Virus record (IMG/VR): IMGVR_UViG_3300025450_000112
Location: 1 to 25,558 of that record
Strand: one strand, 5' to 3'
DNA from: a virus
Length of the DNA stretch: 25,558 bases
The notes below the pieces were generated by a model, which was not told the DNA's origin, did no database searches, and saw only the letters and a program-made list of their open reading frames with translations. This document shows positions 4,057 through 25,558 of this stretch, in pieces. How positions within the stretch are numbered: the stretch's first letter is position 1; each line of letters starts with the position of its first letter. Both the position numbers and the translations under genes were made by a program.

Positions 4057-6772
<2,716 letters not shown>

Positions 6773-6782
6773 AGGATAAGCC

Positions 6783-7415
6783 ATGAGCGCACAAATTTCT
6801 CTGAACCCTATGGCTACAACTAATGGTGCTGGTCTATTTACGACCAACACCGCTGGTTATACCCAAGGCGATGCACAAGATGATCCCGCAGTACGTTTTC
6901 AATTAGCGGGCGGCGTATTAAGTGCTGCTGCCCCTACCCCGATTTGGGGCGGGCTTCCTATTGAAGAACTCGTACCTACCGCCCAAGCAGGGGCTTTGGG
7001 CCAAGTTCAACCCGGCACGGATATTTTGGGGGCAACTATTCTCCAATCGGTATCGCTTGCAACCAGTACAGGTATTTGCGTATTTAATCAAGCTTTTGCC
7101 GGTATTACAACGCCTCAGTCTACAGTGCCACTGTATTCACCGGGGATGTCGGTGAACTTCTACCGTTTTGGTAGCAGCGCGCGTGTTCCCCTTCGCCTTA
7201 ATCCTGCTTTGGTAACTTTGGAAGGTGAAATAATTAACACCCCATTGACTTGGGATTTTACTAGCAATTGGTTGACTACCTTTGACGGTACAAATGCTTT
7301 CCCGGTAAAAGTTTTGCGGGTTAGCACTTCTGGCAATAAGTCTGTCAGCTATAATTCTGGCACTGGCAATGCTAATTGGATTACCACTGAAACTATGGCT
7401 CTTTGCCTACTCTAA
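6783..7415 (+). CDS. Putative capsid decoration/structural protein
   Basis: A 210-residue protein between the scaffold and the major capsid protein, with an excellent AAAGGA site ahead of the ATG. It is rich in Thr, Gly, Ala and Pro, and predicted beta-strand. The N-terminal half has AVRFQLAGGVLS and TPIWGGLPIEEL segments, a pattern I associate with capsid-associated proteins of phages with this gene order. No membrane segment or enzymatic motif. Position next to the capsid gene suggests a decoration or cement role, but a minor structural or scaffold-partner function is possible. The 3' end overlaps an upstream extension of the capsid frame; the real capsid start lies after its stop. Confidence 0.65.
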   Translation: MSAQISLNPMATTNGAGLFTTNTAGYTQGDAQDDPAVRFQLAGGVLSAAAPTPIWGGLPIEELVPTAQAGALGQVQPGTDILGATILQSVSLATSTGICVFNQAFAGITTPQSTVPLYSPGMSVNFYRFGSSARVPLRLNPALVTLEGEIINTPLTWDFTSNWLTTFDGTNAFPVKVLRVSTSGNKSVSYNSGTGNANWITTETMALCLL

Positions 7416-11412: not shown

Positions 11413-12732
11413 ATGTCAAACAACATTGTTAATGTATTAGTCTCCCAACAGGTTGCAAGCGCGCCCACCACTCTGCAAAAAACTGGCGCGTTTGTATCTC
11501 AAGGGGCGACCACGCTTACAGCAGGGGGTACCGCCCTCTTAACTCAAATGAGCGATTTGACCAGCATTCTTGCTGGCGCTATCTCTACAACTTCATTGGT
11601 GTGGAATACCGGAGTAGTTACGGTAACTTTAGCGGGGCCACATGGCATTCCTATCACTGACACCATTCTGGGGATTATAACTGGCGTAACCCCAGCGGGA
11701 TATAACGGCACTTTCAATATCACTTCTACGGGTGCTAACACATTTACGTTTCCGTTAACTTCCAGCCCCGGCATCGCCACCGTTCAAGGCGTTTATACTA
11801 ATGAAGCCGTGCAAGATTTGGTTGCTATGGCAACCACTTATTTTGCACAAGGCAATACTAATGCTGTGTATGTTCTGGAACTAGGTCTTGGCACAACGGG
11901 GCAAGGGGTTACGGCTTTGGCGGCCTATATTGCGGCCCCGACTATTCAGTTCTATTCGTACTTGCTATCCACTGAAATGTCGGCAGATACCACAATGCCT
12001 GCTTTAGTAACAGCCCATTCTTCGCCTATTTCGCAGGTGTATTTCTTCCTGACTACCTCGGATATAACTACCCCTTCTAACCCCGATTCATACGGCCCGT
12101 ATGAGACCATGAAAGGTGCGATAGTTACTTATGAAGCAGTAGGCGCTCCTGTAACCCAATGGTCAGCAGCAGCGATCATGTACCAAACTTTGAGCTACGC
12201 GCCTGCCGCTAATAATCTGGCCTCCCCGCTGGAATATACCTTCGTGTATGGCATCGTACCGCCTGCACTAACCAGTGCTCAACAAACTACGCTGGCAGCA
12301 GCAGGCGTGAACTGGATAGGTACAGGAGCACAAGGGCAGATCAGCAACACGCTGATTCAAACTGGCGAAACAATGGATTTGAAGCCCTTTAACTATTGGT
12401 ATTCTACGGATTGGGTTGCCATCAATGTAGCCATTGCTTTATCCGCAGCAATAATTAATGGCAGCAATACTCCGCAAAATCCTTTGTACTACAATCAAGC
12501 GGGGATTAACGCCCTGCAAAAAGTAGCGCAAGCCTTGGTTAACAGCGGCATATCCTTTGGGCTTATTCTATCTCCGGCTACAGTAAACGCGATTTCTTTT
12601 GTACTCTATATCGCGCAACATCCAAGTGATTATGCAGCAGGAGCATACAATGGGTTGAGTGTTACTTTTGTGCCGCTGAGAGGCTTTACTGAAGTGACTA
12701 TCTACTTAACCGCTTCCAACATTCCAGTTTAA
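11413..12732 (+). CDS. Tail sheath protein (DUF3383-like)
   Basis: A 439-residue contractile-tail sheath subunit. The N-terminus (SNNIVNVLVSQQ) and the segments TTYFAQGNTNAVYVLELG and INVAIALSAAI match DUF3383-type sheath proteins, and the next gene encodes the tail tube, the standard order. A ~70-residue module at residues ~58-127 (nt 11584-11793) interrupts the region between TQMSDLTSILAG and EAVQDLVAMATT; it is related to modules in two baseplate genes of this window. The ribosome site is AGGGGACTATT. Sheath contraction drives the tube into the host; the module is probably on the outer surface. Confidence 0.9.
   Translation: MSNNIVNVLVSQQVASAPTTLQKTGAFVSQGATTLTAGGTALLTQMSDLTSILAGAISTTSLVWNTGVVTVTLAGPHGIPITDTILGIITGVTPAGYNGTFNITSTGANTFTFPLTSSPGIATVQGVYTNEAVQDLVAMATTYFAQGNTNAVYVLELGLGTTGQGVTALAAYIAAPTIQFYSYLLSTEMSADTTMPALVTAHSSPISQVYFFLTTSDITTPSNPDSYGPYETMKGAIVTYEAVGAPVTQWSAAAIMYQTLSYAPAANNLASPLEYTFVYGIVPPALTSAQQTTLAAAGVNWIGTGAQGQISNTLIQTGETMDLKPFNYWYSTDWVAINVAIALSAAIINGSNTPQNPLYYNQAGINALQKVAQALVNSGISFGLILSPATVNAISFVLYIAQHPSDYAAGAYNGLSVTFVPLRGFTEVTIYLTASNIPV
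11584..11793 (+). repeat. Beta-rich module copy 1, in the sheath protein
   Basis: Residues ~58-127 begin at LVWNTGVVTVT and run through GPHGIP, ITGVTPAGYNGTF, NITSTGANTFTFPL to ATVQG. The pattern is shared with modules at 20044-20277, 20323-20541 and 21297-21509. The DNA is diverged at synonymous positions, so the copies are not recent duplicates. Confidence 0.8.
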
Positions 12733-12744
12733 GGAGCATGAATA

Positions 12745-13188
12745 ATGGCTAATCCACAAGTCGTACAGGGCACACTAAATAGACTGCTTGCAAGTGTAGT
12801 CTATTCAGATTTTGCTGCTCTAAATATAACCTCTCCTTATCTGGCTAAAGAAGCGATTAGCTTGGGCTTTGAAGGGGACACCTCGCTGTTGCTGGGAACC
12901 TTGACCGGAGCTATAACCAGTCCTGCGCCGTATATTTTTGCAAATGTGACAATGCACTTGCTTCGCACTCAGGCATTGGGCGACGCATATAAGGCGCAAA
13001 TCGAAACCAATACGACTCTGGGCTCTGTAACAATCTACCCGGATACTACAGCTTTAGCTCCGTTCCAGTTGAATACTTGCGTACTTTCAAGTATTCAGGA
13101 AGTAGCTTTTGATGGTACGCAAGCGGGCTTAATTGTTCGTCTGCGCGGTGTCTACTCTATCAACTCAACCATGTTCAATGCCGCATAA
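12745..13188 (+). CDS. Tail tube protein
   Basis: A 147-residue protein directly after the sheath gene, with AAGGAG 8 bases ahead of the ATG. It opens with a tube-protein-like N-terminus (QGTLNRLLASVVYSDF) followed by SPAPYIFANVTMHLLRTQ and ends with VRLRGVYSINSTMFNAA, all patterns of the inner tail tube of contractile phages. Size (about 150 residues) and position fit. It polymerises around the tape measure to form the DNA channel. Unlike the preceding gene it has no inserted module. Confidence 0.85.
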   Translation: MANPQVVQGTLNRLLASVVYSDFAALNITSPYLAKEAISLGFEGDTSLLLGTLTGAITSPAPYIFANVTMHLLRTQALGDAYKAQIETNTTLGSVTIYPDTTALAPFQLNTCVLSSIQEVAFDGTQAGLIVRLRGVYSINSTMFNAA

Positions 13189-13198
13189 AGGATAAAAA

Positions 13199-13783
13199 GT
13201 GAAAATTGACCGAAATCTGAATCTTGTGATGCAGGTTCAGACGGCTAAGAATGGAACGATCCATATACATTCAGTTTCAATTAGCCGATCTGTTTTTGAG
13301 CAGTTTTACTTGGAACTTGGAAAAGTATTTAGCCAATGCTTTGATAGCGTGAATCAGGCGCATTTGGTTCTGTCCGCGCCGCAGTTAGCTTATCCGGCGC
13401 TGAAGTCCATAGCTACCAAGGCGGGTAATTGGGAAGGCGCTGGCAGCGTTAAATTCGGCCTAATCAATGAAATAATCCGGCTAACCAATGTTCTTGTAAG
13501 CAGCGAAAAAGGCTGGGAATCAATACCTTTTGGTGTTGCGGTTAAACAAGGCATTTTAGACGAGGATGACGAGGCTGAAATCCTTAGCAGTCTTGTTTTT
13601 TTTATAGCAATCTCCAAGGTTGCTCCGAAGGATTTGAAAAATTCTTTCTTGGAGATGGCGGGGGCATTAAGAAATTGGGTACTTACATCCTTGGATGCTA
13701 CGGCATACATGAATGGTTTGCCGATATCGACCAAAAAAGAGCCTACTGGAAGGAAGGCAAAGGACTCGTCGGTGATCTCCTAG
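13199..13783 (+). CDS. Tail assembly chaperone, G-type (pre-frameshift product)
   Basis: A 194-residue mostly helical protein with a GTG start preceded by AAAGGA 6 bases away. It lies between the tube and tape measure genes, the usual place of the chaperone pair (lambda G/GT). The zero-frame product ends in a short basic tail (STKKEPTGRKAKDSSVIS). A slippery sequence at 13732-13739, close to its 3' end, allows extension in the -1 frame (separate entry). It probably coats the tape measure during tail assembly. Confidence 0.8.
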   Translation: MKIDRNLNLVMQVQTAKNGTIHIHSVSISRSVFEQFYLELGKVFSQCFDSVNQAHLVLSAPQLAYPALKSIATKAGNWEGAGSVKFGLINEIIRLTNVLVSSEKGWESIPFGVAVKQGILDEDDEAEILSSLVFFIAISKVAPKDLKNSFLEMAGALRNWVLTSLDATAYMNGLPISTKKEPTGRKAKDSSVIS

Positions 13784-13905
13784 ATTCTCTCAGCAATGAA
13801 TGGTTTTCCGAATTCATAAAAGAGAATGGGGGAAAATGGGCGGATGCTGAAGAATATAGAAACCGGCACTTAATAAAGGCCCTTAATAACAGGTCGTTTT
13901 TTTAA
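13199..13905 (+). CDS. Tail assembly chaperone G-T fusion by programmed -1 frameshift
   Basis: Zero-frame reading from GTG at 13199 to the lysine codons at 13733-13738, then -1 to the frame ending with TAA at 13903-13905. The predicted fusion has about 235 residues: ~180 shared with G plus ~55 T residues that start RAYWKEGKGLVGD and continue with a Trp-Phe-Ser-Glu-Phe helix to the C-terminus (NNRSFF). The T portion has no credible start of its own, runs open through the overlap, and is directly followed by the tape measure. Occurrence of the shift is inferred from arrangement and the slippery run, not shown. Confidence 0.75.
13732..13739 (+). promoter_or_regulatory. Slippery sequence C AAA AAA G for -1 frameshift
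   Basis: Zero-frame codons are ACC AAA AAA GAG. A -1 slip of tRNA-Lys in AAA AAA leads into AGA GCC TAC of the T frame. A lysine-codon run is the commonest type of -1 site for tail chaperones. The position, 45 bases before the zero-frame stop, fits. Confidence 0.72.
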
Positions 13906-13922
13906 TTTGATAAAGGTAAATC

Positions 13923-15857
13923 ATGGCCGTCAAATCAGTTATAGAAATAGACCTGTTAGACGAGAAATTTCAGGCGTTCAATACCCAGATGCTCGCTCTG
14001 CAAGCTATCCTTGCAGCCATGCCGGAGCAATGGAAGAAAGTAGCAAAAGAAATAAGCGAAGCTGAAAAAGCCGAAGCCAAGGTGCTCTCTGAAGAAGAAA
14101 AAGCACATCGCGCAAAAACCCGCCAAGAAAAAGACTTTCACAAATTGCTTGATGATAGACGCACCGCGCTTATTAATGTGGCGCGCGTCACGGGGCGTAT
14201 CGCCAAAGATATGGCGGATACCGCAGTATCGGTTGCCAAATGGCTCACACTTGGCGCAATCGGCAGCGGTTTCGGGTTAGGGGCTCTAGCTTCTGCTGTA
14301 AGTTCTGATCGCCGCACCGCGCAAGGACTAGGAATTACTCAAGGGCAACTTCGTTCAGCACAAATTTATGGCGAACGATATTTTGATGCTAATGCTTTGC
14401 TTGGTAATTTAGCCGATATTCAAAGCGATATTAGAAAACAACCTATGCTTTCGCGCATTGGTGTCGCCGATAGCAAAGGTAAAAACGCGGCTGAACTTCT
14501 CCCTGAAGTTGTTACTCATTTAAGAGAAATATATCAAAAGTATCACGGGCAACGCGCCATCATCGAAGCTACAGGCGCAACACAGATTATGCCTTTTGAA
14601 GATATGCGAAGGGTTGGTAATCTGTCAGATAAGGAATTTAAAGGCTTTCTTGAAAACCTTAAAAAAGGTAATGAGGCATTCAAAACCCCAGACGCGCTCG
14701 ACGAGGCATGGCAGACATTTAAACAAAACTTACAGACTGCTGGCAAAGGAATAGAACTCACCCTTATAAAAGGGTTAAATGCTTTGACAGGGCCGTTAGG
14801 TGAATTAGCTACAGCGATTAGCGAAGCTATAGGGTCTTTTATTGAAAATCCGCACTTGAAGGAATGGATACATGACTTTGGTGAAGGTATTAAAACTTTT
14901 GCCGCGTATTTAAAAAGCGATGAATTTAATAAGGACATTAGCACTTTCGTTGATGGCATAGGAAAATTAGCCAAAGCGGTTACGGATGTGCTGCGCTGGT
15001 TTGGGGTTTTGCCAGCATTAACCCAAGACAACTTAGCACCACCTGACGCTAACAAACCTAAACCCGGTTTAACGCCCCCTAATAAGGAAAACGTCGATAA
15101 ATTTTTGACGCGGCCTATCACAGAAAAAGAAAAGGCGAGCGTTGGCTCATCTTATCATTGGTACACACCTACTCAAGCAGAGGGAAAGGCAGGCATAGCA
15201 GAGCGCGACAGAAGTGTATTAAAATATCTGGAAGGGCAGGGCTATAAGACTATACCAGCGCTATCTATTTTAGCGTCTTTAAAGGCCGAAAGCGGAGTAG
15301 CACTAGACCCTTTTGCTGTAGGAGATAAGAACGCTAAAGGCGGCCCCTCTCTGGGGATAGCACAATGGCGTCCTGTTGGGCAACAAGAGTTCAAAAAAAT
15401 GTATGGGCATAGTATGGTAGGTAGTCTTTTAGACCGCAATGAACCCAACATAGACCCAAATCAGCTATTGATGGAGCAAATAGAATTTTTAGTCTATCAG
15501 CTTAAAAACGAGAATAAATCGGCTGATCTAAAAATATCTTCAGCTAAAAATATAGCCAGCGGCATAAAAGGAATGCTAATGTTTGAACAGCCAAAGGGGT
15601 GGAACGCACCAGATGAAATCAATTTTAAGCTGAGAGAACGCGAAGCTTTTGGGTCTGAACTTCTAAATCGTTATAATTTAGACTCTAATCTGCTATCACG
15701 CGATCCTAAAGATAATCCCGCCGCGGGGAAAACATCCTTCATGCAAACGCCGAATGTTAATGTAAGCACTACATTGGACTTTAAAGTGAATGTAGCCACG
15801 GGCGCTGATATTATCACGCAGATCAAGGCTATGAATCCAGTAGTAGGGTACGCATAG
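13923..15857 (+). CDS. Tape measure protein with C-terminal phage lysozyme domain
   Basis: A 644-residue protein after the chaperone pair, with AAAGGT ahead of the ATG. Residues ~1-100 are charged coiled coil; WLTLGAIGSGFGLGALASAV (107-126) is a hydrophobic Gly-rich segment that could cross a membrane. A helical rod follows to about 360, then a Pro-rich linker (PNKPKPGLTPPN region). Residues ~445-560 look like a phage tail lysozyme: LASLKAESG with candidate catalytic Glu456, LGIAQWRPVG, and a MEQIEFLVYQL helix. The protein fixes tail length; at 1.5 angstrom per residue the rod part suggests a short tail, below ~100 nm. The lysozyme would cut peptidoglycan locally during DNA entry. Confidence 0.88.
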   Translation: MAVKSVIEIDLLDEKFQAFNTQMLALQAILAAMPEQWKKVAKEISEAEKAEAKVLSEEEKAHRAKTRQEKDFHKLLDDRRTALINVARVTGRIAKDMADTAVSVAKWLTLGAIGSGFGLGALASAVSSDRRTAQGLGITQGQLRSAQIYGERYFDANALLGNLADIQSDIRKQPMLSRIGVADSKGKNAAELLPEVVTHLREIYQKYHGQRAIIEATGATQIMPFEDMRRVGNLSDKEFKGFLENLKKGNEAFKTPDALDEAWQTFKQNLQTAGKGIELTLIKGLNALTGPLGELATAISEAIGSFIENPHLKEWIHDFGEGIKTFAAYLKSDEFNKDISTFVDGIGKLAKAVTDVLRWFGVLPALTQDNLAPPDANKPKPGLTPPNKENVDKFLTRPITEKEKASVGSSYHWYTPTQAEGKAGIAERDRSVLKYLEGQGYKTIPALSILASLKAESGVALDPFAVGDKNAKGGPSLGIAQWRPVGQQEFKKMYGHSMVGSLLDRNEPNIDPNQLLMEQIEFLVYQLKNENKSADLKISSAKNIASGIKGMLMFEQPKGWNAPDEINFKLREREAFGSELLNRYNLDSNLLSRDPKDNPAAGKTSFMQTPNVNVSTTLDFKVNVATGADIITQIKAMNPVVGYA

Positions 15858-16465
15858 TGAGTTCATTAGGGCTATCAACTTTCCGGTTGGCGTATGAAAT
15901 ATCGCCTATTATTTTACAAGGCGGATTAGCACAACAAATCCCCGGCAATTTGCTACCCATTACGGTGCTAACGGAAATGTTTGATATACCGGGCATAGAA
16001 AGCGGCGCGTTCTTTGCCCATTATAAGCCGCTGCCCGGCAGCACTTTAGCGGATTTTGAAATAGCCAAATATCCTTTTGCCAGCCTTCAGGTAGCAGCTA
16101 ACGCTGTTATTCAGCAGCCTTTAAAAGTTAGTATGCTCATGGTATGCCCCGCGCAAACTGAAGGTGGTTATATACTAAAACGGTCTATTCTGACCGCTTT
16201 GCAAACAGAAATAAACACCCACGTTACAACAGGGGGCTCATTTACTGTGATTACCCCGGCATACACTTACACAAACTGTTTGTTGACTAGCCTCCGCGAT
16301 GTAAGCAGCCCTAGCGATAAGCAAGTACAGCTTATGTACCAATGGGATTTTGAGCAGCCATTGATTTCTCAAAGCCAAGCCGCGTCCGTTCTGGGCGGAG
16401 TAATGAATAGCATTACTAATGGGCTTCCCACTTTTACTACTTTAGGCGCGAGTTGGAGCGGTTAA
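15857..16465 (+). CDS. Unassigned tail/baseplate protein after the tape measure
   Basis: A 202-residue protein with a GTG start overlapping the previous TAG by one base (TAGTG) and TAGGG upstream. It begins with SSLGLSTFRLAYEISPIILQ and has a Pro-rich beta segment (FFAHYKPLPGS), then NTHVTTGGSFTVITP. This position, next to the baseplate plug and hub, is typical of a small baseplate-hub or tail-tip protein in myoviruses with DUF3383-type sheaths. The function is position-based; no motif is diagnostic. Translationally coupled to both neighbours. Confidence 0.55.
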   Translation: MSSLGLSTFRLAYEISPIILQGGLAQQIPGNLLPITVLTEMFDIPGIESGAFFAHYKPLPGSTLADFEIAKYPFASLQVAANAVIQQPLKVSMLMVCPAQTEGGYILKRSILTALQTEINTHVTTGGSFTVITPAYTYTNCLLTSLRDVSSPSDKQVQLMYQWDFEQPLISQSQAASVLGGVMNSITNGLPTFTTLGASWSG

Positions 16466-16734
16466 TGGCAACTATTTCTTTCAATCCTTCCGCCAATGCG
16501 AATTTTCAATTTAGCCCTGTGCTAGACGGACTAACTTATACTGCCATTTGTACTTGGAATATTTATCGCGGTGGCTATTACATCAACATATATAATTCTT
16601 CCCGAGCCTTGGTTATGAGCCGCCCAATCATTGCTTCGCCGGATGACTATAATATTAATTTGGTGTTTGGGTATTTCCGAACTTCTACACTTGTTTACAG
16701 AGCCAGCAGTACGGCGTTTGAGATCAATCCATAG
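16465..16734 (+). CDS. Baseplate plug-like protein (Pam3 gp18 type)
   Basis: An 89-residue protein. The start is the ATG at 16465 in TAATG, with GGAG 6 bases ahead, rather than an upstream ATG at 16453 inside the previous gene. The beta-rich sequence ISFNPSANANFQFSPVLDGL, then RGGYYINIYNSSRALVMSR and a hydrophobic C-terminal strand matches small baseplate plug proteins (Pam3 gp18/DUF6983 type) that close the tail tube at the baseplate. It sits between a baseplate-area protein and the hub, as expected. The stop overlaps the next GTG start (TAGTG). Confidence 0.65.
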   Translation: MATISFNPSANANFQFSPVLDGLTYTAICTWNIYRGGYYINIYNSSRALVMSRPIIASPDDYNINLVFGYFRTSTLVYRASSTAFEINP

Positions 16735-17738
16735 TGCGTTATTACAATATAACCATAACACCGCCGCCAGACTTAGAAGGTAATACGCCCTCCGCTTTGA
16801 TCTATAGCACTATGAATGGAGGCTTTGAAAATACTGGGGCTTTAAAAATAGACTTGGATATTTACCAATCCCCATTTCACCAACCTACGCAAAATGGCAC
16901 GGTAAAAATATACGGCGTGGATTTTTATGATCTATCACAGGCGACTAATTTAAACCCGGATTATACGCAGACTCCGCCGTTATTATCTTCCATACAAATA
17001 TCAGTGGGTATGTCCAACGGGCTTCCTTTCGCCGATGCGAGTCAACAAGGGCTTATTATTAATGGCTCTATTCTTCAAGCGTTTGGAAACTGGCAAGGTA
17101 ATCTCGTTACGCTAGATTTAATAGTTACATCAGCGGCATTTAACCCTAATATTGATGCTAACCTTTCATGGGATTGGCAACAAGGACAAACGATGGAGGA
17201 TGCTATAAGGATAGCGTTAAATGCTGCTTATCCAAATATCCCAATAGCTTCACCTTTAGGCTCTATTAGTCCTTACCTAGTTTACACAGAAAATCAGGCG
17301 GGGAAGTATAACGGGCTATTTCAGTTTAGCGATTATATAAACGAAACAAGTCTACAAGTACTTAACCAGCCTAACTATTATGGAGTGTTTATATCGCCTT
17401 CGCCTTTTGGATTTATTTTAGCCGATGGTACAATACCCCCAGACAAAACAACGACTATAAATTATACCGATATTATCGGAAACCTGACTTGGATTAATCT
17501 ATACACTATTCAAGCCAAGCTGGTAATGCGCTCCGATTTAAATGTAGGGGACAATATTACTTTTCCTTTAACTTCCCCTGTTGTTAATGTAGCTGCCAGC
17601 ACTTATTCACAGCTACGAAATAACATATCGTTTCAGGGTACATTTAACATTGTTCTAATTCGCCATGTTGGAAGTAGTAGACAATCCGACGGCAATAGCT
17701 GGGTTACGGTTGTTGACGCTGTATTTTTGCCACATTAA
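16734..17738 (+). CDS. Baseplate hub protein (gp27/gpD-like)
   Basis: A 334-residue protein with a GTG start coupled to the preceding stop by one base. Beta-rich opening (YYNITITPPPDLEG), then GTVKIYGVDFYDLSQATNL, which is typical of hub proteins: a recurring Gly-Asp-Phe-type loop and Tyr-rich strands, followed by TSAAFNPNIDANLSWDW. It lies directly before the spike gene. In the particle it forms the ring that connects tube and spike. Identification rests on gene order and general hub-like character. Confidence 0.75.
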   Translation: MRYYNITITPPPDLEGNTPSALIYSTMNGGFENTGALKIDLDIYQSPFHQPTQNGTVKIYGVDFYDLSQATNLNPDYTQTPPLLSSIQISVGMSNGLPFADASQQGLIINGSILQAFGNWQGNLVTLDLIVTSAAFNPNIDANLSWDWQQGQTMEDAIRIALNAAYPNIPIASPLGSISPYLVYTENQAGKYNGLFQFSDYINETSLQVLNQPNYYGVFISPSPFGFILADGTIPPDKTTTINYTDIIGNLTWINLYTIQAKLVMRSDLNVGDNITFPLTSPVVNVAASTYSQLRNNISFQGTFNIVLIRHVGSSRQSDGNSWVTVVDAVFLPH

Positions 17739-17741
17739 ATT

Positions 17742-18428
17742 ATGAGCCAAGCACAGAAAATACCCTTCCCATCTTCTCTGAGCCAATTTCTGCAACAGAG
17801 AATAGAAGCCAATCAACAGGCGGCGGGGCAGATTTACCCCTGCCATGTAACTAAGGTTAATGGCGCTATAGTGACCGTGAACTTTGATGTGGACGCGGGT
17901 CGCAATACCACGCTCCCCGCGGTGACTTGCCCTGTTATTGGAAGCATCTATATTAGGGCTCCTATACAAGTCGGCGATTTTGGTATCTGCATATCTGCCA
18001 GTACCCGATTAGGGGGTGTTACAGGGCTCGGTTCTGGGCTCGCGCCCTTGCTAAATCCGAGCAATCTCGGCGGATTAGTATTTGTACCTATTGGAAATTC
18101 TAATTGGCTTGAAGTTGATGCCAATGCGGTCATAATAAACGGGCCGAACGGCGTAGTTCTAAGAGACACTGATAGCAAAACTGTTTTTACTTTAACCCCT
18201 TCGGGGCTTGATGTTATAGCTCAAACTTCGTTAACATTAGAAGTCGGCAACAATTCAATAGTTATTAATTCAAGCGGCATAACTATTACAGGTAATTTAA
18301 GTGTTACTGGAACTATAGTTAGTACAGGTAATGTCACTGCCGGGGCTATAAGTTTGGAAACCCACGAACATAATGTAGTAAATGTGCAAAGCGGCACTTC
18401 TACTATCCCGACTTCAGCGCCATTTTAG
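17742..18428 (+). CDS. Baseplate central spike protein (gpV/gp45-like)
   Basis: A 228-residue protein. Residues ~25-85 resemble an OB-fold, PCHVTKVNGAIVTVNFDV and a Gly/Ile/Pro strand (IRAPIQVGDFGICIS). The C-terminal half is repetitive beta-strand (NSIVINSSGITITGNLSV), as in the triple beta-helix of puncturing spikes. The apex holds Thr-His-Glu-His at residues 207-210 (H208-E209-H210); the His-x-His apex motif binds iron in P2 gpV-type spikes. It starts 4 bases after the hub stop without a clear ribosome site, so coupling to the hub is likely. Confidence 0.82.
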   Translation: MSQAQKIPFPSSLSQFLQQRIEANQQAAGQIYPCHVTKVNGAIVTVNFDVDAGRNTTLPAVTCPVIGSIYIRAPIQVGDFGICISASTRLGGVTGLGSGLAPLLNPSNLGGLVFVPIGNSNWLEVDANAVIINGPNGVVLRDTDSKTVFTLTPSGLDVIAQTSLTLEVGNNSIVINSSGITITGNLSVTGTIVSTGNVTAGAISLETHEHNVVNVQSGTSTIPTSAPF

Positions 18429-18436
18429 GGGTTGAT

Positions 18437-19099
18437 ATGCGAACATACGGCTTAGATTCTGTAACTGGAAAGTGGACTCTGCTCACGCAGGGCATTGTTA
18501 CCGGCCCGCCTAACCCCATTACTACGCCTATCAGGGATGTATTGAAAAGCGGGTCTACCATAACAAGCACTCTCTATACGACGATTAGCGCTTTTATAGA
18601 TTCAGACCCTAATGGCTCACTTGTGAATGTAGCTAGAAACGATGTGCTATTGAATGACAAAATATTTGATGCGAATAATAATTTACTATCAAGTTTTTGG
18701 TCAGATTTAACCCAAAATGTAACCATTACAACGCCCCCCTTAACGGTCAATATCGCCCAGCAGATCGGCGGTTCGCAATCTTTTTTCAATAATTGGGGCC
18801 TATCCCAAGGCGAAACGGTTATAGTGGACGCAGGGTATATCTGGCTCACCGCGCTTGTTCAGACTTTGAGGCTGACTACGGGCGAGAGCCCTTTTTACGG
18901 TAACTATGGAATCCCCGGGCAGGAAGCGGTAATGACGCAGGTAGCCCCTGATGTAGCTCTCAACCGTACTCAGGCGCAATACGCCCCTTTTTTCGCAAGC
19001 TTAACCATAGTAAGGCAACAAAATGCCTCTGAACCCACCTACAATGTATATGCTACATTCCAGAATGGGACTAAGATTCAGACAATCGTAGCTACATAG
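18437..19099 (+). CDS. Baseplate wedge protein (GPW/gp25-like)
   Basis: A 220-residue protein between spike and baseplate J, with TAGGGG 5 bases ahead of the ATG. The C-terminal region TGESPFYGNYGIPGQEAVMT, with a Gly-Glu-x-Pro-Phe segment followed by Tyr/Gly-rich turns, resembles the Gly-Glu-Arg-based core of T4 gp25/P2 gpW-type wedge proteins. The N-terminus (RTYGLDSVTGKWTLLTQG) is a typical opening of this group. The gene order spike, wedge, baseplate J agrees. In the virion it sits at the start of sheath polymerisation. Family match is weaker than for the neighbours. Confidence 0.65.
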   Translation: MRTYGLDSVTGKWTLLTQGIVTGPPNPITTPIRDVLKSGSTITSTLYTTISAFIDSDPNGSLVNVARNDVLLNDKIFDANNNLLSSFWSDLTQNVTITTPPLTVNIAQQIGGSQSFFNNWGLSQGETVIVDAGYIWLTALVQTLRLTTGESPFYGNYGIPGQEAVMTQVAPDVALNRTQAQYAPFFASLTIVRQQNASEPTYNVYATFQNGTKIQTIVAT

Positions 19100-19107
19100 G
19101 GAGCATT

Positions 19108-20991
19108 ATGGCGACGTTAACTATTGCCGGGGCCGTCCCCAGCAGCCCGCAGGATTTATTAAACGCTGAAGTAGCAGCGGCTGTGGTGCTCTCGCCGGGG
19201 CTTACGACTAATTTACCCGGCTCTTTGATTGAAGATATGGCCTCAACCGCTGCCGGGGCTGTAATCATTCAAGATCAGGCTTATGTGGACTTGGTTAACT
19301 CCATTAGCCCCTATACCGCCAACCCTTTTATTCTCTACCAATTAGGCGCGGTTTATGGGGTTACTAAAGGAATCGGCGCTAATACTTCGGTCTATGTAAC
19401 CTTTTCCACCGTCACTCTGCTTAACCCTACGGGGACACCGGGGTTTGTAGTCCTTGCCGGTTTTGTAGTATCGGACGGTAGCTATCAATACGTTGTGCAA
19501 GACGGCGGTATTATAGGCTCGGGGGGCCAAAGTTCGGCATTATTCTGCCTCGCCACGAAAGCCGGGTCTTGGGCAGTACCAGAAGGCACCGTAACGACGA
19601 TTATTACCTCTGTACCGAGCGGCATTAGCCTCTCCTGTACTAATCTCACGGTAGGCACCGCAGGGGCCACAGCGCAGACTATACAAAGCTATCAGGCTCA
19701 AGTAATTCAAGCAGGTCAAGCTGTAGCCCAAGGGATGCCTTCCTTCCTAAAAACACAGCTACAGAATGTGTCCGGGGTGCAAAGTAATCTCGTGTCCATT
19801 TCTCAATCGGGGGCTAACTGGCAAATCCTGTGCGGCGGGGGCGGCGATCCCTACCAAATAGCCAATGCTATTTTCACGGGGCTATTCGACATATCTAATG
19901 TCATAGGCTCCACGCTCTCCGCTTCTACACTTACCAATGCCTATCCTGCTGTAGTTACCACCAATTTGACGCATGGTTTTACTACCGGGCAGGTTATATA
20001 CGTTAGCGGGGCCACCGGGCTAACAAGTATTAACAGTACCCCTAACATTGCTATTAGCACAATGACTTGGGCTTCCAGCGTAGTTACTGTAACTACGGCT
20101 ACCCCACACGGCGTTGCTTCAGGGGCCAAGATTTTAGGGCTGATCGCCGGAGTTACGCCTAATGGATACAATGGCACATTCACCATTACTTCCACGGGTA
20201 CCAACACTTTCACATATCCATTAGCATCTAATCCCGGCGCTGTAACTATTCAGGGCGCGGTATCCACCGAAGTTCCTTATGTAGCTGTAGTAAACAGCAT
20301 CAATAGCTTTAGCCTTAATGTGAAAATTGCCTCCTTGTCTTGGGCTACCGGCACGGTTACTGTCACCACCGTGACCCCGATGGGGCTCACAAGCGGAACG
20401 GTTACGGGCTCTATCTACGGCGTAACGCCTTCCGCATACAATGTTTCAGGTGTTACTTTCACTTATATATCCGCCAATTCTTTTAGCTATCCTTTAGCAT
20501 CAAATCCGGGTACTGCTACTGTATTGGGCTATACGCCTTTTGATAGCACCAGTCTTGCATCTTATACCGGAAACGGCGTGATTACGCCTAACCTTAGAAA
20601 TGTCACGGTATCTATTAATAACTACCCTAATACCTACAATATTTCTTTTATAAATCCGTTGCCCCAATTAGTAGCCATAACGATTTTATGGAATACAATC
20701 GCCACCAATTATGTATCCCCCATTTCAGTATCTACAGCCGCTAGTGTGGCAATCTCAAACTACATCAATGGGATTACTGTCGGGCAGCCTATTAATCAAT
20801 ATGAAATGCAAGCCATATTTCAGCAATCTATTGCATCATTAATCCCGATTCAATTTATTTCAGAGATTAATTTCACGGTGGTAATTAGCGGCGTGACCGT
20901 AGCCCCTGCCGTAACTACGGGGCTATATTATGGCGATCCGCAATCGTATTTTGTAACTAATTCTTCAAGCATTACGGTAACTCAAGCATAA
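19108..20991 (+). CDS. Baseplate J-like wedge protein with two inserted modules
   Basis: A 627-residue protein preceded by AGGGAG. Residues 1-~275 and ~485-627 match baseplate J-type wedge proteins (for example LLNAEVAAAVVLSPGLTTN and the C-terminal NYINGITVGQPINQYEMQA). Residues ~279-405 begin with an FCCH-like stretch (AVVTTNLTHGFTTGQVIYVS) whose second half (YVAVVNSINSFSLNV) comes after a ~78-residue insert at ~313-390; a second insert follows at ~406-478 before DSTSLASYTGNG. Both inserts contain a GVTP loop and a Thr-Ser-Thr-Gly-like turn. Both probably decorate an outer surface. Its stop overlaps the next start (TAATG). Confidence 0.85.
   Translation: MATLTIAGAVPSSPQDLLNAEVAAAVVLSPGLTTNLPGSLIEDMASTAAGAVIIQDQAYVDLVNSISPYTANPFILYQLGAVYGVTKGIGANTSVYVTFSTVTLLNPTGTPGFVVLAGFVVSDGSYQYVVQDGGIIGSGGQSSALFCLATKAGSWAVPEGTVTTIITSVPSGISLSCTNLTVGTAGATAQTIQSYQAQVIQAGQAVAQGMPSFLKTQLQNVSGVQSNLVSISQSGANWQILCGGGGDPYQIANAIFTGLFDISNVIGSTLSASTLTNAYPAVVTTNLTHGFTTGQVIYVSGATGLTSINSTPNIAISTMTWASSVVTVTTATPHGVASGAKILGLIAGVTPNGYNGTFTITSTGTNTFTYPLASNPGAVTIQGAVSTEVPYVAVVNSINSFSLNVKIASLSWATGTVTVTTVTPMGLTSGTVTGSIYGVTPSAYNVSGVTFTYISANSFSYPLASNPGTATVLGYTPFDSTSLASYTGNGVITPNLRNVTVSINNYPNTYNISFINPLPQLVAITILWNTIATNYVSPISVSTAASVAISNYINGITVGQPINQYEMQAIFQQSIASLIPIQFISEINFTVVISGVTVAPAVTTGLYYGDPQSYFVTNSSSITVTQA
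20044..20277 (+). repeat. Beta-rich module copy 2, in baseplate J
   Basis: Residues ~313-390: MTWASSVVTVTTATPHG, then LIAGVTPNGYNGTF, TITSTGTNTFTYPLASNPG and VTIQGAV. It interrupts the host's own FCCH-like domain between INSTP and YVAVV, with STP/STEVP bordering the insert like a small boundary duplication. Confidence 0.75.
20323..20541 (+). repeat. Beta-rich module copy 3, in baseplate J
   Basis: Residues ~406-478: LSWATGTVTVTTVTPMG, then IYGVTPSAYNVSG, an FTYISANSFSYPLASNPG stretch and TVLGYTPF. It sits just after SLNV. It is the most diverged copy in its middle (Gly-Val-Thr-Pro-Ser-Ala-Tyr in place of the usual Gly-Tyr-Asn-Gly-Thr). Confidence 0.7.
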
Positions 20992-21845
20992 TGTTAGCCA
21001 CTACGCTGCCTGCTTATCTTTATCAGCAATATAATTCCGACCCAGATTTGGAAGCGTTTTTTACCGCCTATAACAATACCTCTCAAGAATACTTAAATAC
21101 AATCAATGCGTTGAATTTGCCGGTCTATACTTCCGCATCTATTACCGGGGTTTTATTGGATTGGGTAGGAAACAGCCTTTATGGAATCGCTCGCCCGTAT
21201 ATAACTACGGGTTCATCGAGTATCAGTAAAGGTGTGTACGATACGACTATTTACGATACGATTGATTATAATACTGGAATTATAACAAGTTCACAAATAC
21301 CAATAGCTTCAATGTTTTGGAGTTTAGGTATTGTCACGGTTACGGTGGGCGCGACTTATAACTTATCCGGGATATCTTCAGGCAATATTCAGGGGGTAAC
21401 GCCCGCCGGGTATAACGGTGATTTTGCTTTAACTTCTATTGGCCCACACTCCTTTACATACGCTTTGGCAAGCAACCCCGGCGCAGTAACAACGCAAGGA
21501 TTCATAACTAATGCAGTAGAGCTGGCCTCTGACGATATTTACAAGCGGGTAATAACTTGGAATTTTTATAGGGGGGACGGCTACCAATTCAATATTAATT
21601 GGCTAAAAAGGCGGGTTGTTCGCTTTTTATCGGGAATAAACGGCTCTGACCCCTACCAAACAAATATTGATGGCGTTAATGCTTATCAAATAAGCATTAT
21701 TTTTCCAACACCTTCTTCATATAATGCGACGATTCAGATACTATCAGGGGCAATGGACACATCGCTGGCGGCTACATTACAGTCTTTTGTAAGTTCACAA
21801 GTTCTACAACTGCCGTTTCAGTATAATTGGGCTGTAACCTATTAG
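20991..21845 (+). CDS. gpI-like tail protein (DUF2612-like) with inserted module
   Basis: A 284-residue protein translated from a TAATG overlap with baseplate J. The N-terminus (TTLPAYLYQQYNSDPDLEAF), VLLDWVGNSLYGIARPY and the C-terminal DDIYKRVITWNFYRGDGYQF followed by a WLKRRVVRFLSG helix match DUF2612 tail proteins, which follow baseplate J and connect fibres. The region between these parts (residues ~103-173) is a beta-rich module related to those in the sheath and baseplate J proteins. Role inferred from order: wedge tip and fibre attachment. Confidence 0.85.
   Translation: MLATTLPAYLYQQYNSDPDLEAFFTAYNNTSQEYLNTINALNLPVYTSASITGVLLDWVGNSLYGIARPYITTGSSSISKGVYDTTIYDTIDYNTGIITSSQIPIASMFWSLGIVTVTVGATYNLSGISSGNIQGVTPAGYNGDFALTSIGPHSFTYALASNPGAVTTQGFITNAVELASDDIYKRVITWNFYRGDGYQFNINWLKRRVVRFLSGINGSDPYQTNIDGVNAYQISIIFPTPSSYNATIQILSGAMDTSLAATLQSFVSSQVLQLPFQYNWAVTY
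21297..21509 (+). repeat. Beta-rich module copy 4, in DUF2612-like protein
   Basis: Residues ~103-173: MFWSLGIVTVTVGATYN, then IQGVTPAGYNGDF, LTSIGPHSFTYALASNPG and VTTQGF. It sits between YDTIDYNTGIITS and ELASDDIYKR of the host. It lacks the Pro-His-Gly turn of the other copies. Confidence 0.78.
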
Positions 21846-24164: not shown

Positions 24165-25558
24165 ATGTCCATATTACTTTTTCAAAATCAGGCGCAGACA
24201 ACTTTAGCGCTATCTGTTATCAACACAGATACTATTATCTATGTTGCTGCGGGCACGGGCGTATATTTCCCCGCCCCCGGCGCAGGCGAAGCGTTACCGT
24301 TGACGATTGTTAAGTCAACCAATAGCCTGATTGTTGAAATTGTATACTGCACCAATATCACCGGCGATGCGCTCACTGTCATGCGCGGGCAGGAAGGTAC
24401 TATAGCTCAGGCATGGGCTCGGGGGGACTTTGTAACTAATTTAATGACCGCCGGGACTGCGAGCACTTTTATACAAGTTCCACAGTTACTAACTGGAACG
24501 CTCTCTGCACATCTTAATAATACGCGCTCTACTACAGGGCAAGTAGATACTGCACCTGTAAATCCAACTGATATTGTTAATAAGAATTATGTTGATAATC
24601 TTGTTATCGGCTTTACGCCCAAACCTGAATGCCAATGCGCTACCACCCCTGCGGATGGAAACCAAAGCTTATCCGGGTTGCCTATCATTGATGGTTACCA
24701 AACGCTCGTAAATGACCGCGTTCTAATAAAGAACCAGAGCAATGCAAACTATAACGGCATCTATGTAGCGGCAGCGGGTGCATGGGCTCGTTCGGCGGAT
24801 ATGGATATATGGGCCGATGTGCCCGGCGCATTTACCTTTATCCTTAATGGCAATGTCAACATCAACACGGGCTGGGTTTCTATCGCCCCTGAAGTGGGAT
24901 TTATAGACCATACACCTATTGTATTTACTATTCTGACAGGTGTAGGTACTTCAGGTTATTCGGGTTTTTCCGGTTATAGCGGAAGCTCCGGCTATTCAGG
25001 ATATAGTGGATTCAGCGGCTATAGGGGGTTAAGTGGATACAGTGGATGGTCGGGTATATCCGGCTATTCTGGCATTAGCGGTTATAGCGGATCGGGCATA
25101 TCCGGCTATTCAGGTTTCTCCGGCTATAGTGGATTTGGACTTTCCGGCTATTCTGGCTTATCAGGATATTCCGGTATTAGCGGTTACAGCGGTTCAGGAA
25201 TATCTGGCTATAGTGGGTTAAGTGGATATAGTGGACGGTCTGGTATATCCGGCTATTCCGGCATTAGCGGTTATAGCGGCAGCGGTATCAGTGGTTACAG
25301 TGGGGCTGGGCTATCTGGCTATAGTGGCATTTCAGGATACAGTGGCATTTCAGGATACAGTGGTATTTCAGGTTATAGCGGTTACTCAGGCATCAGCGGC
25401 TATAGCGGTTATTCAGGCATCAGCGGCTATAGCGGTAGCGGTATTAGTGGCTATAGCGGTTCTGGCATAAGCGGATATAGTGGTTCCGGTATTAGTGGTT
25501 ATTCCGGCGTTAGCGGATATAGCGGTTTCTCAGGCATTAGTGGTTATAGTGGCTTCTC
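24165..25558 (+). CDS. Fibre protein with collagen-like Gly-Tyr-Ser repeats, partial at 3' end
   Basis: An open frame from ATG 24165 (one base after the previous stop) to the window edge with no stop, about 464 codons so far. Residues ~1-103 share the anchor domain of the 21854 gene: a Phe-Pro-Ala-Pro-Gly element, EIVYCTNITGDALTVMRGQE and the following Ala-Trp-Ala-Arg-Gly-Asp. Residues ~145-260 contain a fibre domain with GYQTLVNDRVLIKNQSNANY and NGIYVAAAGAWARSADMD. From residue 264 on, the chain is a Gly-X-Ser collagen-like repeat. Ribosome site is weak (stop-start coupling likely). It is presumably a long side or tail fibre. Confidence 0.85.
   Translation, partial: MSILLFQNQAQTTLALSVINTDTIIYVAAGTGVYFPAPGAGEALPLTIVKSTNSLIVEIVYCTNITGDALTVMRGQEGTIAQAWARGDFVTNLMTAGTASTFIQVPQLLTGTLSAHLNNTRSTTGQVDTAPVNPTDIVNKNYVDNLVIGFTPKPECQCATTPADGNQSLSGLPIIDGYQTLVNDRVLIKNQSNANYNGIYVAAAGAWARSADMDIWADVPGAFTFILNGNVNINTGWVSIAPEVGFIDHTPIVFTILTGVGTSGYSGFSGYSGSSGYSGYSGFSGYRGLSGYSGWSGISGYSGISGYSGSGISGYSGFSGYSGFGLSGYSGLSGYSGISGYSGSGISGYSGLSGYSGRSGISGYSGISGYSGSGISGYSGAGLSGYSGISGYSGISGYSGISGYSGYSGISGYSGYSGISGYSGSGISGYSGSGISGYSGSGISGYSGVSGYSGFSGISGYSGF
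24954..25558 (+). repeat. Collagen-like (GYSGxS)n coding repeat
   Basis: About 200 residues of Gly-X-Ser triplets, mostly alternating GYS with GFS, GIS, GLS or GSS, with occasional GSGIS interruptions that break triplet register by one residue. No proline; only two charged residues (both Arg). Codons vary widely (Ser AGC/AGT/TCC/TCA/TCT/TCG) but DNA-level repeats remain: three 18-nt GYSGIS-type units around 25317-25374, two 27-nt units at 25380-25433 differing at one base, and a ~60-nt block at about 25026 repeated 189 nt later. Confidence 0.93.

Follow-up and report, generated by a model that had tools for sequence, protein, structure and literature searches.

FCCH-like beta modules in the tail sheath and baseplate proteins of a contractile-tailed phage

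The tail sheath protein, the baseplate J-like wedge protein and a DUF2612-like baseplate protein of the uncultured phage examined here carry four related segments of approximately 68 residues. These are probably copies of an autonomous FCCH-like beta-barrel domain that has spread among loops of virion proteins, reaching the sheath first and the baseplate later. The DNA analysed is a 25.6-kb IMG/VR record (IMGVR_UViG_3300025450_000112; 25,558 nucleotides, the whole of which is referred to as the window) that contains phage genes for the head and the contractile tail. Its gene order is that of Klebsiella phage Chronis, Pantoea phage PdC23, and Yersinia, Shewanella and E. coli Rac-SA53 phages. 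The homologues compared came from IMG/VR, phage records and GTDB genomes. The relevant features, all on the + strand, are as follows.

11413..12732, +, tail sheath protein (phrog_205), carries module S; PHROG 9.5e-28 over 1-433, Foldseek to phage sheaths with E down to 4e-14
11587..11790, +, module S (sheath aa 59-126); HMM E 1.2e-26
19108..20991, +, baseplate J-like wedge protein (phrog_6), carries unit F together with modules N and T; PHROG 6e-21, orthologues annotated baseplate J
19900..20037, +, older FCCH-like unit F, first part (aa 265-310); Pfam E1_FCCH E 0.0017, below cut-off; uninterrupted in relatives
20038..20271, +, 78-codon inserted stretch breaking unit F (alignment A8)
20053..20256, +, module N (baseplate J aa 316-383), lies within unit F; HMM E 2.9e-30
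20272..20322, +, unit F, second part (VPYVAVVNSINSFSLNV; alignment A8)
20326..20529, +, module T (baseplate J aa 407-474), directly 3' of unit F; HMM E 3e-22
20991..21845, +, DUF2612-like baseplate protein (phrog_8212), carries module D; PHROG 1.6e-56, orthologue annotated DUF2612
21303..21500, +, module D (DUF2612 aa 105-170); HMM E 2.9e-22

Elsewhere in the window, a 635-aa protein (4868-6772), Nudix-like in its N-terminal part and very acidic along a KDD-rich stretch, occupies the position of a head maturation or scaffold gene; its Chronis orthologue is annotated as a Nudix hydrolase. A tail-fibre-like protein (24165-25556) possesses a long collagen-like GYSG repeat (Pfam Collagen, 4.5e-19) and runs off the end of the record. 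One related contig (L167), encoding a sheath of 80% identity and all four modules, was binned to a Mucilaginibacter MAG, a weak hint as to the host.

Homology, age and predicted fold of the modules

All four modules lie in frame within their host proteins. Alignment of the segments agreed with the original prediction that they are related: pairwise amino acid identity is 47-60% (Z 12-21 against 500 shuffles), and an iterated HMM built from the four recovers each of them with E-values of 1e-22 to 1e-30. These Z values, together with the same predicted strand order, rule out chance or low-complexity similarity. Across module pairs, identical residues use the same codon in 21-51% of cases versus the 32-37% expected from codon usage, with values above expectation only for sheath/nested (49%) and nested/second (51%). 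Synonymous sites between the copies are thus close to saturated and the copies are therefore not recent, as had been proposed; recent tandem duplication is ruled out on the same grounds. The window allele recurs in independent assemblies, being identical in two (L018, L019) and approximately 91% identical in baseplate J in four more (L011, L012, L021, L167), and so is not an assembly artefact.

The AlphaFold model of the sheath (mean pLDDT 85) matches solved phage sheaths over its full length in Foldseek. Module S is predicted to form a separate five-stranded domain (pLDDT ~95; strands at 57-65, 68-73, 84-90, 99-105 and 110-114). The fold of the baseplate stretch was predicted from a clean alignment (A8), and the structure alignments were made without rows from annotated phage records. 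The predicted strand order of N and T is that of S, with T modelled confidently (pLDDT about 80-95), N at low confidence (about 60) and unit F below 50.

Many Foldseek entries for the baseplate copies are the E1 FCCH domains of UBA6/UBA1, with probabilities of 0.9-1.0 but E-values of 0.1-1 that are non-significant alone; the match to the isolated FCCH domain 2v31 has a TMt of 0.52. The resemblance to FCCH-like beta domains noted previously is consistent with these matches. Foldseek also links the baseplate stretch to cyanophage fibres and to many uncultured-phage proteins; matches include BFVD proteins named 'Ubiquitin-activating enzyme E1, FCCH domain containing protein' from uncultured Caudovirales. 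The curated cut-off of Pfam E1_FCCH (PF16190; 29.5 bits) was not reached by unit F (18.8 bits) or by the modules (best E 0.0076), weak matches being given by 4 of 28 module copies, and comparison of the module profile with PDB sequences gave no meaningful match. Unlike E1_FCCH domains, the modules have no link to ubiquitin chemistry and are inserted in sheath and baseplate proteins. Foldseek did not assign them to the Ig-like beta sandwiches: Ig-type matches occurred only at low probability, and the best repeated matches were FCCH barrels.

Occupied and empty module sites among relatives

The module is present in 78 of 79 distinct sheath homologues, the sole exception being that of a Shewanella phage; the carriers include Klebsiella phage Chronis and Pantoea phage PdC23. 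In more distant prophage sheaths (L177, L180-L186; homologues of 360-379 aa) the flanks are joined and the site is empty. Module S is therefore an old, nearly fixed part of this sheath family, and the four modules are not equivalent insertions. The proposal of a module moving between contractile sheath and baseplate stands as regards its sharing and the empty sites, but not as four insertions of the same kind. The Shewanella sheath (L004 13242-14561) has, at aa 127-202, a different repeat of a kind that tail fibres and baseplate wedges also contain. In a further sheath (L174 9998-11605), the region of the module site holds an insert of unknown type that is well over 100 residues long.

Module D is optional in the DUF2612-like protein, with 15 of 67 homologues carrying it and the remaining 52 showing no module match. 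The empty site spans approximately 41 aa in most homologues and is found in all six isolate phages (6/6). On the weak DUF2612 host tree, presence and absence of D need three changes.

In baseplate J, a further and more distant FCCH-like unit (F; aa ~265-310 and 389-405) was identified, inside which module N sits. Most homologues possess the single unit F and others possess F with module T. In L030/L031, F is interrupted by a module, and in the window clade F is interrupted by N and accompanied by T. An empty site, where the conserved flanks lie only 21-26 aa apart, is seen in E. coli Rac-SA53, L106, L120, L143, L159, L162 and others. In alignment A8, ten relatives have an uninterrupted unit F, and in the window clade it is split by a stretch of 78 residues that is missing from relatives of the F and T arrangement; the break starts after 'SINS' and F resumes with 'VPYVAVV'. 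A8 is the clean set: N and T came out misplaced when the nested protein was aligned together with sheath fragments and single-unit homologues. As judged from this alignment, the nested copy is one FCCH-like domain inserted into a loop of another.

On the host-flank tree of baseplate J the six states need 14 changes versus a shuffled mean of 34.5. The module of L030/L031 lies in the same loop as N, but the pair falls in another supported set of the tree than the window clade, one that includes relatives with uninterrupted F and with an empty site. In one relative (L117 17062-18453), an unrelated beta repeat of tail-fibre type (phrog_21413, phrog_38233) replaces the FCCH unit.

Relatives thus have empty counterparts of precisely these positions in baseplate J and DUF2612, and so do distant prophage sheaths. 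This bears out the original prediction that the segment lies between conserved family halves, and the segment is not a constant part of all three families.

Source of the baseplate copies and spread among virion proteins

Outside its own orthologues, N is closest in DNA to a sheath module (73% over 176 nt, E 7e-26), and the best matches of D are likewise sheath modules (74-78% over about 100 nt). Because sheath copies outnumber baseplate copies, the pools were equalised in size before donors were compared. For N, the sheath then comes out ahead of the baseplate pools in 98.5-100% of draws; for D, it wins 99.7% of draws on DNA and only 20% on protein. Transfer from sheath to baseplate is accordingly the likely direction for N and a possible one for T and D. 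By DNA the likely reservoir of both the nested and the DUF2612 copies is the sheath, and for D the protein comparison does not single out a donor. In no bootstrap tree does a branch separate the sheath modules from all others, and N requires two changes in every one. AU tests did not reject the scenario of only one transfer from the sheath (p 0.17), nor single origins for the nested (p 0.35) and the DUF2612 (p 0.25) copies; these module trees rest on 68 columns, which do not fix the number of transfers.

The module profile also found the family in a head protein (phrog_6268) of other phages or prophages (L209-L231), the window's own homologue of which (6783-7415) is without the module. One, two or four copies occur in the phrog_5107 family, one tail protein (L058) carries the module, and a protein of 1,490 aa has five copies. 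This wider scan was made with a single-copy query, alignment A9 being too variable for it. The same domain is hence present in unrelated virion proteins and present or absent between orthologues, as in a promiscuous virion beta domain.

Promiscuous beta domains on phage virions are already known for Ig-like domains. In the work of Fraser et al. (2006), as cited in PMC9230969 and PMC10684548, these too are small, optional beta domains common to unrelated virion proteins, with horizontal exchange and a proposed accessory role in adhesion. They differ in fold, and the present module lies inside proteins at fixed loops and nested in another domain. The window sheath, with its conserved main domain and one extra beta domain, corresponds to the Type 2 tail sheath proteins of Evseev et al. 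(2022; PMC9230969), but its extra domain is FCCH-like and common to baseplate proteins of the same phage. Domains common to functional classes of tail proteins have been described as phage protein domain mosaicism (Smug et al. 2023, PMC10684548), a text search of which returned neither 'sheath' nor 'FCCH'. The literature searched yielded no account of FCCH-like domains from phages. New here are the FCCH-like family in the promiscuous-domain role, its sharing between sheath and baseplate, and the nested insertion.

Origin, constraint and possible role

An old insertion of the domain into the sheath, a protein present in many copies per tail, would have been followed by the capture of sheath-type modules by baseplate J and DUF2612 at a small number of permissive loops, one of them in the FCCH unit already in baseplate J. 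Host proteins may tolerate the module because it probably folds on its own. Capture could have proceeded through infrequent recombination joining non-allelic genes, either within one phage or between co-infecting phages, with purifying selection subsequently keeping the copies. The near fixation in the sheaths of this family would also suit a module ancestral to all three protein families and lost many times, and losses of T and D are possible on the host trees. This is very unlikely, as sheath, baseplate J and DUF2612 are different protein families, between which the common segment must therefore have been copied at least twice. Moreover, DUF2612 sites in the isolate phages and some baseplate J sites are cleanly empty, and the nested copy breaks a unit found uninterrupted in relatives.

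Between the window and L011, dN/dS is 0.01-0.11 for every module, lowest in the nested copy (0.012), the ratios being rough as dS is high. All copies thus appear to be under purifying selection, which argues for use of the module and against diversifying, antigen-like evolution. Diversifying selection is rejected on these low ratios, and the suggested 'immunity to antibodies' is left unsupported. That the inserted stretches are a functionless, neutral by-product of recombination would agree with the variable presence of the module and with the unrelated beta repeats accepted by the same sites or proteins, such as those of L117 and the Shewanella sheath. We consider it unlikely given a dN/dS far below 1 in every copy, part of which a need for folding may explain, with dS near saturation.

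To our knowledge, no function has been established for the extra domains of most phage sheaths. Adhesion or virion stability has been proposed for them (PMC9230969), and in phage 812, by an account cited there, an extra sheath domain contacts a neighbouring subunit. This contact and the purifying selection, strongest in the nested copy, lend some weight to the possibility that the module is a structural part cementing neighbouring sheath and baseplate subunits without touching the host cell. On the other hand, most DUF2612 and many baseplate J homologues do without it, so that it is not needed for assembly, and the same module occurs in head and other virion proteins. We favour instead an autonomous domain spread from sheath to baseplate, whose copies probably decorate the phage particle. 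Their function would most likely be repeated, weak, high-avidity contacts with cell-surface or matrix glycans and, next to this, contacts between neighbouring tail subunits that stabilise the tail.

More tentatively, tail proteins in this group of phages may have fixed docking loops that take up small beta domains time and again, the sheath gene serving as a reservoir for baseplate genes and for nesting; sheath and baseplate would then come to bear the same surface chemistry. The common module ties the contractile sheath to the baseplate, and the natural series within one gene family (empty, one unit, two units, nested) shows how a virion protein gains domains. With the module in several proteins and natural module-free alleles available, the function of extra sheath domains becomes testable.
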